NCBI GenBank assembly: GCA_913055195.1
Contig: CAJXJU010000018.1
Location: 1 to 10,043 of the forward strand
DNA length: 10,043 nt
Direction of reading: 5' to 3'
Source of the DNA: an uncultured Desulfohalobiaceae bacterium
Lineage (GTDB): Bacteria; Desulfobacterota; Desulfovibrionia; Desulfovibrionales; Desulfonatronovibrionaceae
Shown: in pieces, positions 1,945-9,925 of the stretch
Layout: the number at the start of each line of letters is the position of its first letter
Numbering within the stretch: the first letter of the stretch is position 1
Made by a program: the position numbers and the translations under genes
The notes under the pieces: generated by a model
The model's input: only the letters and a program-made list of their open reading frames with translations
What the model was told of the DNA's origin: nothing
Databases searched by the model: none

Positions 1945-2448
1945 GTGAAAAACTCTCTGGCAAACCATGTCATGCAAAAAATTAGTGAAGTCAATGAGCT
2001 TTATTTCCGGTTGATTTTGCTGGTTGGTCCGTCAGGTTGCGGGAAAACAAAACTTTTGCAGGAACTATCTACTTTGACTTCCGCACCGCTTATCAACGTC
2101 AACCTTGAGTTATCTCGCGTGCTGCTGGATTTGAGTGAACGCCAGCGTGTATTGCAACTGGCCAGGATATTAAGCAAAATAGTGGCTGAACAAGCACCTC
2201 GCAGGTGCTCGACAGATGTTGGTAGCGACCTGGTTTTGCTCGATAATATTGAAATTCTTTTTGATAGACACCTTAAACAGGATCCTTTGCGTCTGCTTCA
2301 GGGGCTATCCAGAAATAAAACAATTATAGCAACCTGGAATGGAAATATTAAGGATGGCCATATTATTTATGCTGAGGCCGGACATCCTGAATATCGCCGT
2401 TATCCTGCCTGCGATTTTTTGTCAGTCAGCATGGATGTGGCCAGATGA
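1945..2448 (+). CDS. brxF: BrxF, small P-loop ATPase of type 3 BREX
   Basis: This 167-residue protein matches the BrxF pattern. It has Walker A GPSGCGKT (28-35), then INVNLELSRVLLDLSERQR, a Walker B-like LVLLDNIEILF, the run QDPLRLLQGLSRN, and a C-terminal HPEYRRYP. BrxF is the small nucleotide-binding subunit specific to type 3 BREX phage-defence loci and is encoded beside BrxC/PglY, as here (21-bp gap to the next gene). Its exact biochemical role is unsettled. The start is a GTG supported by AAGGAG. One oddity is that residues 83-89 (QAPRRCS) are encoded by a copy of the palindromic repeat found upstream of the gene. This places an Arg/Cys-containing insert in the linker before Walker B, in frame and without destroying any motif. 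I recognise the family from motif order and neighbourhood, not from a search. Confidence 0.82.
   Translation: MKNSLANHVMQKISEVNELYFRLILLVGPSGCGKTKLLQELSTLTSAPLINVNLELSRVLLDLSERQRVLQLARILSKIVAEQAPRRCSTDVGSDLVLLDNIEILFDRHLKQDPLRLLQGLSRNKTIIATWNGNIKDGHIIYAEAGHPEYRRYPACDFLSVSMDVAR
2191..2212. repeat. AGCACCT palindrome, copy 2, inside brxF
   Basis: AGCACCT (2193-2199), CGC, AGGTGCT (2203-2209), with the same CA and CGA flanks as copy 1. Twenty of 22 positions agree with 1895-1916, and the two changes fall at the loop, so the stem is preserved. The element starts exactly on a codon boundary and is read as QAPRRCS. It is 296 bp downstream of copy 1. Confidence 0.75.
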
Positions 2449-2469: not shown

Positions 2470-5400
2470 ATGAAATACGGGGAATTAATCCAGTTTGAAG
2501 CCATTGATACAATAATTCGGCTCAGGGATGCTGATGAGAGTTTAACTGCCAGGCAATTGGTCAGCACCTATGTCATTTCAGATGAAATGGCTGATAGATT
2601 GATTAACCTTGTGTTTCCTCAACTTCAATTTGCTCATCCTGCTGACAACAAAGGGCTTTTAATAGTGGGTAATTATGGAACTGGTAAGTCTCATCTGATG
2701 TCAGTGATTTCCAGTATTGCCGAAGATATGGATTTACTTTCCCTTCTTAAAAACGAGCAGGTAGCAGAGGCTGCGCATCAAATTGCCGGTAAATTCAAGG
2801 TAATTCGTACTGAAATAGGCGCAACCACCATGCCTTTGCGAGATATAATTGTAGGAGAACTGGAAGAACATCTAGCGAAGATGGGTGTTGATTATTCATT
2901 CCCGGATGCCAGTGAGGTTGTAAGCAACAAGCGGGCATTTGAAGAGTTAATGGCAGCTTTCCATGAGGTATATCCGGATCATGGTCTGCTTCTGGTGGTG
3001 GATGAGTTATTGGATTATCTTCGTACCCGTAAAGATCAGGAATTGATCCTTGACCTTAATTTCTTGCGTGAGGTGGGAGAAGTCTGCAAAGACTTACGCT
3101 TTCGTTTCATGGCCGGATTGCAGGAAGCCATCTTTGACAGCCCTCGTTTTGCTTTTGTGGCTGATCAGGTTCGCCGGGTAAAAGACCGTTTTGAGCAAAT
3201 CCTTATTGCGCGTCAGGACGTTAAATTTGTTGTGGCGCAGCGTCTTTTAAAAAAAACTGAAGAACAGCAGGCTGAAATTCGTGAATATCTCACGCCTTTT
3301 GCCAGGTTTTACGGTCAGATGAATGAACGAATGGAAGAATTTGTGCGTCTTTTCCCTGTCCATCCCGACTATATTGATACTTTTGAACGCGTCACAGCAG
3401 TGGAAAAACGTGAGGTGCTCAAGACCCTTTCCTTTGCTATGAAAAAATTGCTTAATGATGACGTGCCTGCTGATAGACCCGGTCTTATTTCTTATGACAG
3501 TTACTGGGAAAAATTGCGAAGCAACCCTGCCTTCAGGCTCATTCCAGATGTAAAAGCTGTTCTTGATTGCTCTTCTGTCCTGGAGGCCAGAATTGAGCAG
3601 GCATTTACCCGTCCGGTATATAAACCATTGGCGCTTCGCATCATTCATGCCCTGTCGGTTCATCGTCTGACTACAGGTGATATTTATGCTCCCATTGGCC
3701 CTACTGCCGAAGAACTGCGGGATTCTCTCTGTCTTTATCAACCTGGCATTGAAGATCTGGGCGGAGAACCAGCAGATGATTTACTAACCCTGGTGGAGAC
3801 AGTCTTAAAAGAGATTCATAGAACAGTAAGTGGTCAATTTATTTCTTTTAATCCAGAAAACAGGCAATATTATCTTGATCTTAAAAAGACAGATGACTTT
3901 GATGCCCTTATTGAAAAGCGTTCAGAAACCCTTGATGCTTCACATCTGGATCGCTACTACTATGAAGCTCTAAAACGGGTAATGGAATGTACTGATCAAA
4001 CTTATGTAACTGGCTATAAAATCTGGCAACATGAACTGGAATGGACAGATCGTAAAGTAACAAGGTCAGGTTATTTATTTTTTGGTTCACCTAATGAGCG
4101 TTCAACAGCAGTGCCGCCTCGTGATTTTTATATTTATTTTATTCAACCATTTGATCCGCCACGCTTTAAAGATGAAAACAAGGCCGATGAGGTCTTTTTG
4201 CGCTTAAGCCACATGGACGATGAGTTTCGCACTGCACTTATGAGATATGCTGCTGCACTGGAACTGGCTTCCACCTCAAGCGGTCAGGCCAAAAAAGCTT
4301 ATGAATCCAGGGCGGGCGAGTTTTTACGCAAAATGGTAAACTGGTTGCAAAGCCATATAACCGATGCTTTTGACATAACTTATCAGGGGAAAACCAAAAA
4401 GCTAAGAAGTTGGGCAAAAGGTAAGTCCCTTCGAGAACTATCCGGCATCTCCCCCCATGAGCGCATTAACTTCCGTGACTTAATAAATACCATTACCAGC
4501 ACTATTTTATCTGCTCATTTTCAGGATCAAGCACCAGAATATCCTTATTTTTCAGTGCTCATTACAAATCAAAATCGTGAACAGGCTGTTCAGGATGCCC
4601 TGCGTGCCATTGCAGGCAATACTCCTACCAGGCAGGCAAGGGCTGTTCTTGATGGACTTGAACTATTTGATGGCGAACGGTTTGACCCTTATGCATCCAG
4701 ATACGCAAACCATGTTTTGAACATACTAAAAAATAAAGGCCATGGCCAGGTGGTCAATCGTTCAGAATTAATACAGGATATTTACGGCGTTGAATATTTT
4801 GCAGCGGATAAGGGGTATCGTCTGGAACCAGAATGGCTTGTGGTGATTCTGGCGGTTTTAGTTTATAATGGGGACGTGGTGCTTGCAATTCCTGGTAAGA
4901 AATTTGATGCTACTAAAGTTTCTGAACTTGCTGCCACTCATATTTCTGAACTTACTCAGTTTAAACATATTGAGCGTCCCAAAGACTGGAATTTGCCAGC
5001 CCTAAAAAGCCTTTTTGAATTGTTAAAACTTACTCCTGGCCTGGTGCAACTGATAACTCAGGGAAAAGATGAGCCTGTGCGAGAGCTTCAAAAGGCCATT
5101 TCTGAAAATGTAGAGAAGTTTGTTTTAGCTCAACAAATCCTGCAAAGCAGATTACCATTCTGGGGTAGAAATTTGCTTGCTGAAGAAGATGTAAAAAAAT
5201 ACCAGAAGCAGCTGGAAGAAACAAAAAACTTCCTGGAATCTTTGCAGCCTTATACTTCTCCTGGTAAATTGAAAAATTTTCGCTATAGTTCTGAAGAAGT
5301 TAAAAAACACGAGGCTGGTTTTGCTGTTCTTGCTGAGCTAAATTCCATGCAGGAATTAATAAATGATTTTGCATCGCTTACATCTTATCTGTCAGAAGCA

Positions 5401-6201
5401 GGGGTGGTTTTGCCTGAAGGGCACGAATGGGTAAAACAGATGAAAAATACAAGAGACATGGTTCTGGCTGAAATATTTAATTTAACCAGCAATAAAACCA
5501 GTTCTTTTCGGCAGCAAACTCTTAAAAAATTAGGGGAACTAAAAAATAAATATGTGCAGGTTTATCTTGAATTGCATGGCAAAGCTCGTCTGGGGGTGAA
5601 TGATGATAAACGCAAAGCCAGACTTTTGAATGATAATCGACTTAATGTCTTGAAAAAACTTGCCACCATTGACCTGTTGCCACGGCAGCACCTGACAGAT
5701 TTTCAAAATCGTCTGGCGGTCCTGAAAACCTGTTTTGCTCTGACTTCACAGGATATTGAAGCTTCGCCAGTTTGTCCGCATTGTTCTTACCGGCCAGGCA
5801 CGGAAATTTCTTCTGTTCCAGCAAGCTCAATACTTGATAATCTGGACGATAAACTGGATCAGATGATTGATGAGTGGACAAAAATGCTTTTAGATAACCT
5901 GGATGATCCAACCACTCGTAAAAATCTTGATTTGTTAGCACCTGCAGAACGTAATTTAATAGATACTTTTCTTAAGGAACGAAAATTACCAGAAAATTTG
6001 AGTCAGGATTTTATCCATGCCATTCAGGAGGTATTGTCAGGTCTTTGTAAAATTACTCTTAAGATGGATGATTTGCGCCTTAATCTTTTTAAAGGTGGCG
6101 CACCTGCAACTCCTGCTGAGTTAAAGAAACGCTTTGAAGAATATATAGATGAGCTGACAAAAGGGTATGAACAGGGGAAAGTAAGGATTGTATTGGAGTA
6201 G
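2470..6201 (+). CDS. brxC: BrxC/PglY-type large ATPase (DUF6079 family), BREX-3
   Basis: This is a 1243-residue P-loop ATPase of the DUF6079 type, the large BrxC/PglY subunit expected next to BrxF in type 3 BREX; the length is normal. The start ATG is preceded by AAGAGGG at 2455-2461. The N-terminus [18 protein letters not shown] leads to Walker A GNYGTGKS (67-74) followed by HLMSVISS. Walker B is [12 protein letters not shown] (173-184, with D178 and E179). The middle is helical and charged, and residues about 890-1060 look coiled-coil prone (many E/K/L/Q). A single CPHC knuckle occurs at 1102-1105 with no obvious second Cys pair nearby, so a complete zinc ribbon is not evident. BrxC is part of the core needed for BREX host methylation and phage exclusion in characterised systems; the mechanism is inferred by family. 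It lies between brxF and a gene starting 3 nt after its stop, consistent with one transcript. Confidence 0.85.
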
Positions 6202-6204
6202 TTT

Positions 6205-7929
6205 ATGCGGGAACTTTCTGAAATTCGTTTATTATTAGATAAACTCGAACATCAGCCTGCTGATGCTTTAGAAGATCAGGATCTTGATTTCAAGGAATGG
6301 AATACCCGCAGCATGGCAGATGCAATATCCATGACTATTGAGATGGCCATTTGTATGGCTAATGGTGGGGGCGGCACAGTAGTTTTTGGTGTCAATGACA
6401 AAGCTATAGGACGTAAACAAGCCATTTTAGGAGTGCCGCCAGAAGTGGATATGAATCGTCTAAAAAAGGCGGTTTATGATTCAACCGATCCTAGACTTAC
6501 TCCTGTTTTTCAAGAGCTTATAGTTCCAGAAGGAACTGGTCGGCTTATTGTCATGCAGGTTTATCCTGGATTGCCTCCTTATACTGACACCCAGGGACGA
6601 GGCAAAATTCGCGTGGGAAAGGACTGCCAACCTCTTACAGGAACATTGCGCCGCGGGATAATGGTAGAAACAGGAGAAACTGATTTTACTGCCATTTCAG
6701 TGTCGGATCCTGTTGAATCACTTATTTCCGCAGCAGCTATGGAGCGCTTGCGGGAAGCTGCACGTCGCGAGAACGCACCTGAAGATTTGCTTAATAAGAC
6801 AGACCTTGACTTACTTACTGCTCTGGATTTGCTCCGTAACGGGCAATTGTTACGAGCTGGTATATTTTTGGCCGGTACAAAAGATGCCATACGTAAATAT
6901 TTTCCTGGTTATATCTGGACGTATCTGCGCATGGAAACTGATATCCACTATTCTAATCGTGCAGATGGTTATGATGCTTTACCAGTTGCTCTGGAACGGA
7001 TCCTGGATTGGGTTATGACTAACAATCCAATTACCACAGTCCCTCAAGGTCTTTTTCATTTTGAAATTCGTACCTATCCAGAAATAGCCTTAAGAGAAGC
7101 GTTGCTCAATGCCTTTGCTCATGCTGACTATCGTATAGCCGGGCCAATTATGGTTAAACAATTCCAGGATCGGTTGGAAATAAGCAATCCAGGTGGTCTG
7201 CCAGGAGGGATTACTCCTGATAATATCTTACGACATGAACCAATTGCCAGAAATCCAGCCCTGATAGATGCTTTGACGCGCCTTCGATTGGTCAACCGAA
7301 GTAATCTGGGAATACGCCGTATGTATCATGCCCTTCTAATAGAAGGCAAAGAACCTCCTATAATAATTGATGAAGGTGAAGCAGTGAGGGTTATTTTTCA
7401 GGCAAGCAATCTGTCTGTACCGTTTCGGATGTTTGTTGCTGAAGAAGCAGATCGGGGCAGGATTCTCACTGTTGAACATCTTTTGATTTTACAACATTTG
7501 TTCAGGCATCCAGAGATAGATACGATTGTTGCCGCTCAAATTGCGCAACAGTCTGAGCAAAGTGCCAGAGAAATTTTAAGTGAAATGGAATTAAAATTTG
7601 GATATATTGAGCGTGGTGGAACAGGAAGAGGAACTTACTGGATTTTACGCCATGATCTTCATCGACGACTGTCTTTGCCTGGTCATCCTGAACGGGATCG
7701 CCGGATTGATTGGGAAGCAGCCAAGACTCGGGTTTTAAGCGTCCTCAAACAACGAGCCCAACGAGGAGAGTCCGGACTGAGTAATGCTGAAATTCGACAG
7801 ATCACCCATTTCGACCGCGCGCAAGTAAAACGGCTTATGGCCGAGCTAAACCGTGAAAACGCGGCTACTCTGACAGGAAAGGGCAGGGGCGCTCGATGGG
7901 AATACAAAGAGAATAATAACAATGGATAA
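6205..7929 (+). CDS. AlbA_2 / GHKL-type ATPase / tandem winged-helix regulator-like protein
   Basis: This 574-residue protein has the COG2865 layout. The AlbA_2 (Schlafen-like, putative nucleic-acid-binding) domain is N-terminal, with LDFKEW (27-32) and ANGGGGTVVFGVND (52-65). A HATPase_c_4 domain follows, with E298, N302 and HADY (306-309) as the N-box and NPGGLPGG (328-335) as the glycine box. Two winged-helix segments follow at about 420-485 (GYIERGGTGRGTYWIL) and about 505-570 (GLSNAEIRQ...TGKGRGARWEY). The usual family member has one C-terminal winged helix, so the second is an extra. Its ribosome site GGAG (6195-6198) lies in the last codons of brxC and its ATG is 3 nt after that stop, so translation is probably coupled. 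Candidate roles are an ATP-dependent transcriptional regulator of the locus or an accessory defence effector. It is not one of the classical BREX-3 core genes. The function is inferred from domains only. Confidence 0.85.
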   Translation: MRELSEIRLLLDKLEHQPADALEDQDLDFKEWNTRSMADAISMTIEMAICMANGGGGTVVFGVNDKAIGRKQAILGVPPEVDMNRLKKAVYDSTDPRLTPVFQELIVPEGTGRLIVMQVYPGLPPYTDTQGRGKIRVGKDCQPLTGTLRRGIMVETGETDFTAISVSDPVESLISAAAMERLREAARRENAPEDLLNKTDLDLLTALDLLRNGQLLRAGIFLAGTKDAIRKYFPGYIWTYLRMETDIHYSNRADGYDALPVALERILDWVMTNNPITTVPQGLFHFEIRTYPEIALREALLNAFAHADYRIAGPIMVKQFQDRLEISNPGGLPGGITPDNILRHEPIARNPALIDALTRLRLVNRSNLGIRRMYHALLIEGKEPPIIIDEGEAVRVIFQASNLSVPFRMFVAEEADRGRILTVEHLLILQHLFRHPEIDTIVAAQIAQQSEQSAREILSEMELKFGYIERGGTGRGTYWILRHDLHRRLSLPGHPERDRRIDWEAAKTRVLSVLKQRAQRGESGLSNAEIRQITHFDRAQVKRLMAELNRENAATLTGKGRGARWEYKENNNNG

Positions 7930-7930
7930 A

Positions 7931-8000
7931 AAAATGGCACCAATCCATTTCTATGCCATTTTGCAGTATAAATGGAATAATAAATGGCAATATGCCATTT
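7931..8000. repeat. AAATGGCA / TGCCATTT inverted-repeat cluster
   Basis: AAAATGGCA (7931-7939) pairs with TGCCATTTT (7954-7962). AAATGGCA (7982-7989), ATA, TGCCATTT (7993-8000) make a perfect 19-nt palindrome. Partial copies lie between: CCATTT at 7945-7950 and AAATGG at 7970-7975. The units recur roughly every 11-13 nt. It begins immediately after the stop codon of the AlbA/GHKL gene. Confidence 0.6.
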
Positions 8001-8032
8001 TGTGCTTATTAACATCCATTCTGACACAGAGG
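7997..8032. repeat. 36-nt segment duplicated from 1810-1845 (right copy)
   Basis: This is the partner of the segment ahead of brxF: 30 of 36 positions identical, ungapped, all six differences transitions. It starts inside the last TGCCATTT arm of the preceding cluster. It lies about 335 nt upstream of the ATPase gene. Confidence 0.6.
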
Positions 8033-8126: not shown

Positions 8127-8264
8127 GGTACGCGCGGACTGAGTAAGCTTTCTGCTAGGCGGTTATATTGCACCTCAGAGGACCTTACCCATCTTAAACA
8201 TTTGGATTTGATAGAATTAAAAGGATTTGGGCGTAGTGCTGTCTGGCGTCTGAAGAAAAATTGA
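8127..8264 (+). pseudogene. remnant of a winged-helix C-terminal tail (COG2865-like)
   Basis: The + frame between a TGA at 8124-8126 and the TGA at 8262-8264 reads GTRGLSKLSARRLYCTSEDL, continues with THLKHLD, and ends LIELKGFGRSAVWRLKKN. This parallels the end of the gene upstream: GLS start (there GLSNAEIRQ), then a DNA-recognition-like helix, then a G-x-G-R wing (there TGKGRGARWEYKEN). It has no start codon or ribosome site. Upstream, protein-like sequence continues in another frame (LAETEKVYPEPEFGDEVRAD at about 8081-8140), so at least one frameshift separates the pieces. I read it as the tail of a lost paralogue or of an earlier version of the upstream gene. It could also be chance, because it is only 45 codons. 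Confidence 0.5.
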
Positions 8265-8304
8265 ATAAGGCAAGAATAAGGCAAAATAAGGCAATAATAA
8301 GGCA
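8264..8304. repeat. four phased AATAAGGCA direct repeats
   Basis: AATAAGGCA occurs exactly at 8264-8272, 8275-8283, 8285-8293 and 8296-8304, with start-to-start spacing of 11, 10 and 11 nt, close to one DNA helical turn. An inverted copy, TGCCTTATT, follows at 8314-8322. The array begins at the last base of the TGA that ends the winged-helix remnant and lies about 60 nt before the next start codon. It is iteron- or operator-like. Confidence 0.75.
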
Positions 8305-8327
8305 GCCGACTTTTGCCTTATTTTTTT
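8296..8327 (+). terminator. intrinsic terminator-like hairpin with T-run
   Basis: AATAAGGCA (8296-8304) and TGCCTTATT (8314-8322) form a 9-bp stem with a 9-nt loop, followed by five more T's (8323-8327). The stem is AT-rich with only a GGC/GCC core, so efficiency is doubtful. Its left arm is the fourth AATAAGGCA repeat. If functional, it would end transcripts from the brxF-brxC operon before the ATPase pair. Confidence 0.5.
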
Positions 8328-8366: not shown

Positions 8367-9383
8367 ATGACAATTACAAGATTACGATTTGAGCGTTTTA
8401 CCGCTTTTGAAGAACTGGACATTGAAATAAGCCCTGGCATCAACATTTTTATTGGAGCCAATGGGACTGGCAAAACTCACCTTCTCAAAGCTGCTTATGC
8501 TGCGTGTGATATTACAAAGACAGGTGTGAATTATGCTGAAAAGCTCATTCGTATTTTTCTTCCTTCTGGTAGAGCATTGGGTCGGCTGGTAAAACGGCGC
8601 AAAGGTAGTTCACGAGGTATAATAGAAATTTATCGTAACGATCTTAAATTGCGCTGCTCTTTCTCAAACCATGCTACTGTTGCCACTTCAGCAACTATTC
8701 AGGGCATAAAAAAATGGGTGAGTAATAAAATTGAAAGCGTTTATATTCCTGTTAAGGAAATGCTGTCTAATGCCCCTGGTTTTCAATCGTTATATGCTCA
8801 AAGAGAAATTCATTTTGAGGAAATTTATGCTGATATTTTGAATCGAGCTTACCGCCCACCGCTTCGAGGCCCAATGGATAGAAATAGAAAAAAATTGATG
8901 AACACTTTGCAAAAAATCATAGATGGTAAGGTAACAATTAAGGAAGAAGAATTTTTTCTGCGCAACAAACAGGGTAATCTTGAGTTCACTCTTCTTGCAG
9001 AAGGGATGAGGAAACTCGGCCTCTTATGGCTTTTACTGCAAAATGGAACCTTACTTAAAGGTTCTGTCTTGTTTTGGGATGAACCTGAAACAAATCTTAA
9101 CCCAAAGCTTTTTGGGCCGCTTATTGATATTTTATTGGAACTTCAGCGAATGGGTGTGCAGATTTTTTTAGCTACTCACGATTATGTTATTCTTAAAGAA
9201 TTTGATTTGCGAACTCAAGTAGAAGATAAAGTTTTATTTCATTCATTGTATAGAGAAGAAGATACAAGAGAAATTGGGTATTTTTCTACAGAAAAATATT
9301 TGCAAATTCATCCCAACGCTATTGCTGATACGTTTACTGATTTGTATAATCGAGAAATTAAACGTAGTTTGGGGAAGAATTAA
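8367..9383 (+). CDS. AAA_15/OLD-like ABC-type ATPase, first gene of a two-gene unit
   Basis: This 338-residue ATPase of the RecF/SMC/OLD type has an N-terminus MTITRLRFERFTAFEELDIE typical of AAA_15/AAA_21 proteins. Walker A is GANGTGKT (30-37), followed by HLLKA. A signature-like segment, AEGMRKLGLLWLL, begins near 211. Walker B is VLFWDEPETNLNP (234-246, catalytic pair D238-E239), and the switch histidine is in ATHDYVIL (H271). It is short and ends soon after the ATPase core, with no room for a TOPRIM nuclease domain as in OLD proteins, so catalysis on a target would need a partner. That partner is probably the next gene, which starts 2 nt after this stop. The ribosome site is AGAGAG, 8 nt upstream. 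Comparable ATPase-plus-effector pairs are common in phage defence (AriA/AriB, PtuA/PtuB, AbiL). A defence role is inferred from that parallel and the BREX neighbourhood. Confidence 0.82.
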   Translation: MTITRLRFERFTAFEELDIEISPGINIFIGANGTGKTHLLKAAYAACDITKTGVNYAEKLIRIFLPSGRALGRLVKRRKGSSRGIIEIYRNDLKLRCSFSNHATVATSATIQGIKKWVSNKIESVYIPVKEMLSNAPGFQSLYAQREIHFEEIYADILNRAYRPPLRGPMDRNRKKLMNTLQKIIDGKVTIKEEEFFLRNKQGNLEFTLLAEGMRKLGLLWLLLQNGTLLKGSVLFWDEPETNLNPKLFGPLIDILLELQRMGVQIFLATHDYVILKEFDLRTQVEDKVLFHSLYREEDTREIGYFSTEKYLQIHPNAIADTFTDLYNREIKRSLGKN

Positions 9384-9385
9384 AA

Positions 9386-9925
9386 ATGCAAGTTTTAAGA
9401 GAAGGAAATTTGGAGCTATATCTACCAGACGATGTTCAGGCTAAAAAATTTGATGATAGTACACACGGTCTATCTCATTGTATGAAAGCCGTAGATTTTA
9501 TTGTAGAGACTTCAGATAAAATTGTTTTTATTGAATTTAAGGATCCGGATAACCAACATGCTCCTCTGAAAGAACGAAAGGATTTTCTGGAAAAATTGAT
9601 GGGTGGCAAAAAAGATGATCATTTTGTTCGCAAGTATCGTGATACGTTTATCTATCAATGGGCTGCAAGAGCATTAACCAAACCAATTGAATATTATGTA
9701 CTTGTTGCCACAAGCCAATTGGATGCGGCAATGCTTCTGGCAAGGACAGAGGAGTTAAAGCGCAAACTACCCCTGGAAGGGCCTAAATCTGGTGTTTGGC
9801 AACGCCAGATTGCTGCTGGCTGTGGAGTGTTTAATATTGAGACATGGAATGAGCATTTAGGTAAGTGGAAAGTTTCAAGAGTCTCAAAGGAGAATATAGA
9901 TGAGAAAGATAGAGACGAAACTTGA
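9386..9925 (+). CDS. small PD-(D/E)XK nuclease-like protein, partner of the upstream ATPase
   Basis: I do not recognise a named family for this 179-residue protein. Its core resembles a PD-(D/E)XK fold: D37 in AVDFIVE, then a strand IVFIEFKDPD carrying E50-x-K52. A helix region contains YQWAARAL (about 91-98), a place where RecB-like nucleases often carry a conserved Q. A further strand, EYYVLVAT, follows. The C-terminus (about 160-179) is charged and probably disordered. Its ATG is 2 nt after the ATPase stop, with GGGGA (9371-9375) inside the end of that gene as ribosome site, so the two are almost certainly co-translated. There is no signal peptide or membrane segment. The likely role is a nuclease effector controlled by the ATPase, inferred from the motif and the coupling. 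A restriction-type or structural role without catalysis is also possible. Confidence 0.7.
   Translation: MQVLREGNLELYLPDDVQAKKFDDSTHGLSHCMKAVDFIVETSDKIVFIEFKDPDNQHAPLKERKDFLEKLMGGKKDDHFVRKYRDTFIYQWAARALTKPIEYYVLVATSQLDAAMLLARTEELKRKLPLEGPKSGVWQRQIAAGCGVFNIETWNEHLGKWKVSRVSKENIDEKDRDET

Follow-up and report, generated by a model that had tools for sequence, protein, structure and literature searches.

What is the pair of closely spaced genes at the end of a 10043-base contig from an uncultured Desulfohalobiaceae bacterium (assembly GCA_913055195.1, contig CAJXJU010000018.1), and does it represent a defence system that has not yet been described? The window analysed here comprises this contig (C18 of its genome) over its complete length. 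An earlier note had proposed that the two genes form an undescribed defence module composed of an OLD-like ATPase and a small, nuclease-like protein, and had been unable to match the pair to any described system. Both open reading frames are present at the positions given in that note: the upstream gene (8367 to 9383, plus strand) encodes an ABC-type (OLD/SMC-like) ATPase of 338 amino acids that lacks an effector domain, and the downstream gene (9386 to 9925, plus strand) encodes a protein of 179 amino acids that is predicted to be a PD-(D/E)XK nuclease. Two bases separate the stop codon of the first gene from the ATG of the second, and the contig ends 118 bases past the latter. The locus is an intact and conserved module, and it is already catalogued as HEC-02 in PADLOC-DB 2.0.0; its two proteins are referred to below as HEC-02A and HEC-02B.

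HEC-02A aligns almost over its entire length with the PADLOC profile PDLC04213 (residues 1-336 of 338 on positions 1-335 of 337; E = 1.4e-132), and HEC-02B does so with the profile PDLC04229 (residues 1-167 of 179 on positions 1-169 of 171; E = 4.3e-59); all 11 PADLOC models matched by the small protein are HEC-02 models. The window shares both genes and their adjacency with the catalogued system. The earlier note had itself named such a match as grounds for refutation, and the claim of novelty therefore falls; moreover, similar pairs in loci of the BREX (bacteriophage exclusion) system are in print (PMC12839542), and the WonAB system discussed below shares the same plan (PMC12137116). HEC stands for Hma-embedded candidate, a designation that goes back to Payne and co-workers (2024 preprint), and antiviral activity was shown for several members of this group, including HEC-06, and for HEC-04, with HEC-02 being unnamed in the excerpts of the citing papers (PMC12988326, PMC12111858, PMC11411939, PMC12137116, PMC12255303, PMC12629846). 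No experimental test of HEC-02 was found in the open-licence PMC literature, as far as our search terms reach it. The neighbour of the pair in the window is a BREX type 3 system, whereas the name HEC points to Hma; otherwise there is no tested difference. An apparently unknown gene pair thereby becomes a named and testable module, to which we add, without any claim of priority, the case for HEC-02B as a PD-(D/E)XK nuclease, the persistence of the pairing despite divergence of HEC-02B, and a slot within BREX type 3 gene clusters.

The ATPase is intact, as the earlier note had stated. It carries a Walker A motif (GANGTGKT, residues 30-37; 8454 to 8477), a Walker B motif with the catalytic glutamate (WDEPETN, residues 237-243; 9075 to 9095), and an H-loop (ATHD, residues 269-272; 9171 to 9182), all encoded on the plus strand. 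In an alignment of 73 proteins, derived from 72 of the 81 loci described below and from the window, residues G30, N32, G35, K36, and T37 of the first motif, W237, D238, E239, and P240 of the second, and T270 and H271 of the third are invariant. The structure model of HEC-02A consists of a single ABC head that spans the full length of the protein and has no long coiled coil. Together with the three motifs, this fold places the protein among the OLD/SMC-type ABC ATPases. Its nearest structural relatives are the heads of PtuA, SMC, and Rad50; PtuA (8eea) is among the best Foldseek matches (E = 5e-15), and the Rad50/SMC heads are as close to the model as that of PtuA. Pfam assigns HEC-02A to general ATPase families only (AAA_21, E = 1.1e-22), weak sequence matches connect it to Rad50 and RecF, and no Pfam TOPRIM model was matched. 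Among the best 25 of 122 PADLOC matches, models with a TOPRIM protein in their scope (ATPase-Toprim, AriAB, GajA) do align with HEC-02A, and they do so with stretches in its ATPase motifs.

For HEC-02B, sequence databases offer little guidance beyond PADLOC: there is no Pfam match at E ≤ 1 and none in NCBIfam or PHROGs, and searches of the PDB sequences, with phmmer and with a 42-row profile, gave nothing better than E = 0.68. The earlier note had suggested structure prediction as a check, and its outcome is divided. Foldseek placed neither PDB chains nor viral models at E ≤ 1e-3; a second comparison, with VIA-align, was more informative and yielded structural neighbours of the PD-(D/E)XK type, mostly restriction endonucleases. 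The motif recognised in that note, D37 followed by E50-x-K52, is positioned as described: the predicted metal-binding residue D37 (9494 to 9496, plus strand) immediately precedes a strand formed by residues 38-41, and the predicted catalytic E50-F-K52 (9533 to 9541, plus strand) lies on the strand 46-52, which gives the D...(D/E)xK arrangement at core strands that is characteristic of PD-(D/E)XK enzymes. Our alignment of HEC-02B has 202 rows, of which 195 are distinct sequences; it combines the protein of the window with those of the 81 loci and with 120 listed database proteins out of 527. D37 and E50 are present in 202 of these 202 rows and K52 in 201, a degree of conservation from which it follows that the motif does not reflect a chance succession of letters. 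Structural and conservation evidence combined indicate that HEC-02B is probably a PD-(D/E)XK nuclease. A second motif, K83-Y-R85-D86, lies in a helix (residues 76-93; 9632 to 9643, plus strand), and K83, R85, and D86 are each found in 202 of the 202 rows; roles in an interface or in substrate recognition are candidates for it.

How constant is the association of the two genes? Scanning a single genome for each species, we located 109 places with a relative of HEC-02B, of which the best 80 were used; these and one viral contig make up our set of 81 loci, which includes cultured organisms such as Oligosphaera ethanolica (L023) and Parasulfuritortus cantonensis (L050). A HEC-02A match lies immediately upstream of the HEC-02B gene in all 80 loci (80/80), with an extrapolated distance between the two genes of −17 to +26 bases and an overlap of four bases in 50 of the 80 cases. 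HEC-02A is short in L008, L035, and L077, where it stands at the start of the available stretch, and its reading frame is short in L026, L046, L053, and L080. This set had been chosen on HEC-02B, and we therefore applied the two profiles separately to 395 genomes of the phylum. HEC-02B was found in 13 genomes and HEC-02A (E ≤ 1e-40) in 19, and the two genes adjoin each other in each of the 13 genomes that carry HEC-02B. In the six remaining HEC-02A genomes (G034, G081, G258, G336, G342, and G387), the open reading frame that follows HEC-02A encodes a divergent HEC-02B-type protein, and the same is true for a second HEC-02A copy in G297. The co-occurrence that the earlier note had proposed as a check is thus borne out, and the pairing is nearly constant.

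The divergent partners comprise 171-186 amino acids and have a HEC-02 small-protein model as their best PADLOC match (E = 2.5e-16 or better). They retain the ExK motif (ExR in one case), with E50 present in 11 of 11 rows; the position of the aspartate is occupied by glutamate in five rows of one branch. The best model for the partner in G387 (L127) is PDLC04145 (E = 1.6e-58), which is labelled HEC-02A, yet is only 170 positions long; the best model labelled HEC-02B gave 1.4e-12. The two labels look swapped in this part of the database: PDLC04145 ("A", 170 positions) matches small proteins, and PDLC04146 ("B", 344 positions) matches the ATPase. Pairwise distances of HEC-02A and HEC-02B across 72 loci are correlated (r = 0.59; a value as high was reached in 0 of 2000 permutations), a correlation to which shared species history contributes. 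Two genomes carry a damaged HEC-02A beside HEC-02B, one interrupted by a stop codon (G118) and one shortened and with a stop codon (G099); these may reflect either decay or sequencing errors.

The earlier note had also pointed to a BREX neighbourhood, and this holds. Upstream of the pair, the window carries genes for BrxF of BREX type 3 (1945 to 2448, plus strand; PADLOC, E = 2.7e-67; NCBIfam BREX_3_BrxF, E = 1.3e-55) and for BrxC/DUF6079 (2470 to 6201, plus strand; PADLOC BrxC, E = 0, 2054 bits; Pfam DUF6079, E = 0), the latter of which scores only 53 bits with NCBIfam's general BrxC model, whose cut-off is 400. This setting recurs. In 13 of the 81 loci (L002, L009, L010, L013, L017, L022, L028, L030, L033, L046, L050, L051, and L089), BREX type 3 genes enclose the pair on the same strand, with pglX on its upstream side and brxHII, pglZ, or both on its downstream side, and two further loci (L031 and L077) have the downstream BREX genes only. 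PADLOC scans agree with this: PglXI was identified in 8 of 61 immediately upstream open reading frames, and of the 70 downstream ones, 6 matched PglZ and 5 matched BrxHII. HmaA models were matched by 5 of the 70 downstream frames, with Hma as such not having been searched for in the relatives; these matches may be BrxHII helicases, as is seen in L002, where the protein matches both. None of PglX, PglZ, BrxC, BrxF, HEC-02A, or HEC-02B was detected at E = 1e-10 in 17 control stretches (12 kilobases each) from relatives of the window's genome, a control that is not taxon-matched to the 81 loci; two of the 17 gave weak helicase matches to BrxHII.

Which described systems resemble this arrangement? 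The nearest tested one is WonAB from the WASA-1 prophage of Vibrio cholerae, a two-gene operon with anti-phage activity that combines an ABC ATPase with a nuclease predicted to be of the PD-(D/E)XK type (PMC12137116). Protection requires both genes, and mutants of the ATP site and of the nuclease (K71A) are inactive; overproduced WonB is toxic only alongside active WonA, and the system halts translation and leaves genomic DNA intact (PMC12137116). Its authors place WonAB in a larger, so far uncharacterised family of ABC-ATPase sensors with nuclease effectors (PMC12137116). Compared by description only, WonAB and the window follow the same two-gene plan, but the WonA residues K34, R182, E300, and H333 imply a longer ATPase than HEC-02A (K36, E239, H271), and K71 of WonB lies further along its chain than K52 of HEC-02B (PMC12137116). 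Another study reports 594 taxa in which an OLD-ABC ATPase is paired with an HNH, PD-(D/E)XK, or PIN nuclease, and it suggests that BREX has a layer of backup effectors; its modules of an OLD-ABC ATPase and a PD-(D/E)XK restriction endonuclease in BREX or BREX-related loci agree, again by description, in architecture and setting with the pair studied here (PMC12839542).

Two further systems were rejected because their effectors are of a different type. In Septu and in retron I-A, PtuA is structurally close to HEC-02A. PtuB is an HNH nuclease, and the title of entry 9n69 names an HNH nuclease within the retron IA complex; none of the four collections Pfam, PADLOC, NCBIfam, and PHROGs has a PtuB or HNH model that HEC-02B would match. 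PARIS (AriA-AriB) likewise combines an ATPase with a separate nuclease and occurs in BREX loci, and its AriB is a TOPRIM protein (PMC12839542). HEC-02B gave no TOPRIM match, there being no Pfam hit at the threshold named above and HEC-02 models only in PADLOC. The earlier assessment that the small protein is neither TOPRIM nor HNH accordingly stands.

We consider it fairly probable that HEC-02, an OLD/SMC-type ABC ATPase combined with a predicted PD-(D/E)XK nuclease, is a candidate anti-phage unit that serves as an accessory in or beside BREX type 3 and acts in the manner proposed here. The interpretation of the pair as a defence module is retained in this reading, with the ATPase, the PD-(D/E)XK-type signature, the tight pairing, and the defence context in its favour; its novelty is not. 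From the behaviour of WonAB and the literature on BREX backup effectors, we derive a scheme in which an ATP-bound HEC-02A dimer would hold and license HEC-02B and an infection cue would fire it. HEC-02A would dimerise in an ATP-driven manner and the dimer would dock HEC-02B; a signal arising upon infection, perhaps the inhibition of BREX by the phage or a replication product, would change the ATP state of HEC-02A, which in this altered state would permit HEC-02B to cut nucleic acid. By analogy with WonB, host tRNA or rRNA would be a likelier target than DNA, and cleavage would stop translation and with it the phage cycle. A more specific form of this proposal, which we regard as tentative, is that HEC-02 specifically guards BREX type 3, with HEC-02A watching BREX, or its phage inhibitor, and HEC-02B providing a growth-stopping backup once BREX is disabled. 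If this were true, the window would represent a layered operon with two backups, HEC-02 and the Schlafen-kinase-like protein encoded upstream of it. The recurrent position of HEC-02 between pglX and brxHII/pglZ opens a direct way to test the published proposal that BREX contains backup effectors.

The same data can be viewed from the perspective of direct restriction, with HEC-02A and HEC-02B forming a Rad50/Mre11-like machine that cuts invading DNA (ends, replication intermediates, or modified DNA) and spares the host. The proximity of the HEC-02A model to Rad50/SMC heads, the prevalence of restriction endonucleases among the structural neighbours of HEC-02B, and the recurrence of the pair within restriction-like BREX type 3 clusters (13/81 loci) are compatible with this; nevertheless, WonAB, which has the same plan and was tested, spares genomic DNA (PMC12137116), and HEC-02A is a single head of 338 amino acids whose model is devoid of a long coiled coil. 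We therefore hold direct restriction to be unlikely.

A toxin-antitoxin-like arrangement, in which binding of HEC-02A keeps HEC-02B inactive until infection or loss of HEC-02A releases it, would correspond to the release model of PARIS, and we judge it to be improbable. The absence of HEC-02B without an adjoining HEC-02A, both in the 80 loci and in the 13 genomes, would be expected for such a pair, and PARIS, which likewise pairs an ATPase with a nuclease, also occurs in BREX loci (PMC12839542). However, the toxicity of WonB requires WonA with an intact ATP site, and simple sequestration was excluded by the authors for that system (PMC12137116); furthermore, HEC-02B persists beside the broken HEC-02A of G118 and G099, if these are not sequencing errors. 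It is very improbable that HEC-02B is a catalytically dead restriction-enzyme fold that functions as a sensor or adaptor, with HEC-02A as the working part: an inactive PD-(D/E)XK domain was reported in BrxHII of BREX type 3 (PMC12839542), but retention of D37, E50, and K52 in 201-202 of 202 rows, and of E50 even in the 11 divergent rows, argues against it.

HEC-02 is patchily distributed among related genomes. Across 41 of them, the window's own included, the sole other match is a remnant of 50 residues with a stop codon. HEC-02B relatives were found in two plasmid records and, with a pattern scan, in one viral contig, with no match in phage records, and hence there is no sign of a mainly phage-borne module. 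ABC ATPases with a head of this kind are common in repair, and weak Rad50 and RecF matches exist, but a housekeeping pair for DNA repair or stress that lies near BREX by chance is scarcely credible for a module that is recurrently inserted within BREX type 3, has relatives on two plasmids, occurs in 19 of the 395 genomes searched in the phylum, and has its sole intact copy among the 41 related genomes in the window.

The gene order of the window is completed by two further genes. A PDC-S01-like ATPase (206 to 1447; AAA_14 and DUF4143; Pfam, PADLOC), PDC-S01 being a PADLOC candidate system, is encoded just upstream of BrxF, and a Schlafen AlbA_2 protein with a HATPase_c_4 domain (6205 to 7929, plus strand; Pfam SLFN_AlbA_2, E = 4.4e-15; HATPase_c_4, E = 2.6e-20) lies between BrxC and HEC-02A, which is followed by HEC-02B and the contig end. 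The domain make-up of the Schlafen protein is close to that of Schlafen backup effectors reported for BREX (PMC12839542); a C-terminal RPA_C match is weak and below its cut-off. Between the Schlafen gene and HEC-02A, positions 8264-8325 contain AATAAGGCA four times and, after it, the complementary TTGCCTTATT and a run of T, an arrangement that by eye resembles a terminator hairpin, and additional inverted repeats are present at 7931-8001. HEC-02 may be a separate transcription unit. No RNA was detected in the window with Rfam at gathering thresholds.

The genome from which the window derives is 82% complete and distributed over 397 contigs. In it, BrxF and BrxC are found upstream of HEC-02, and BrxHII, PglZ, and BrxA are found on other contigs. 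Contig C131 encodes a BrxHII that is 70-71% identical to that of L002, and C109 carries PglZ, which matches the model found in the relatives (PDLC02558), together with BrxA and another Schlafen protein. A PglX of type 3 was not found in the contigs of this genome in searches of which one left its positive controls silent. The ends of the contigs C131, C109, and C167 were compared with the window for exact overlaps (12-299 bases), and none was found; nor do these contigs share any 31-mers with it, so that their linkage to it is only inferred; C131 and C109 may be neighbours, though without shared overlap.

These contigs carry further genes. C167 (L115; 243-1906 and 2200-4530) encodes an AbiLi/PDC-M38-like ATPase and a DUF3226 protein with a weak OLD-TOPRIM match, about 300 bases ahead of a different PglZ, so that the window's genome has an ATPase-effector pair next to a BREX gene for a second time. 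On C131 (L157), the gene after BrxHII encodes a long protein that is PHP/ABC-like by eye only and runs off the contig, and C109 (L116) starts with the C-terminus of a Ppl-like ATPase, after which the Schlafen protein, PglZ, and BrxA follow. Among the relatives, L029 contains at 11829-11987, about 5 kilobases downstream of HEC-02, a piece of 53 residues that is 96% identical to PglX of L002, a locus from a differently named organism.
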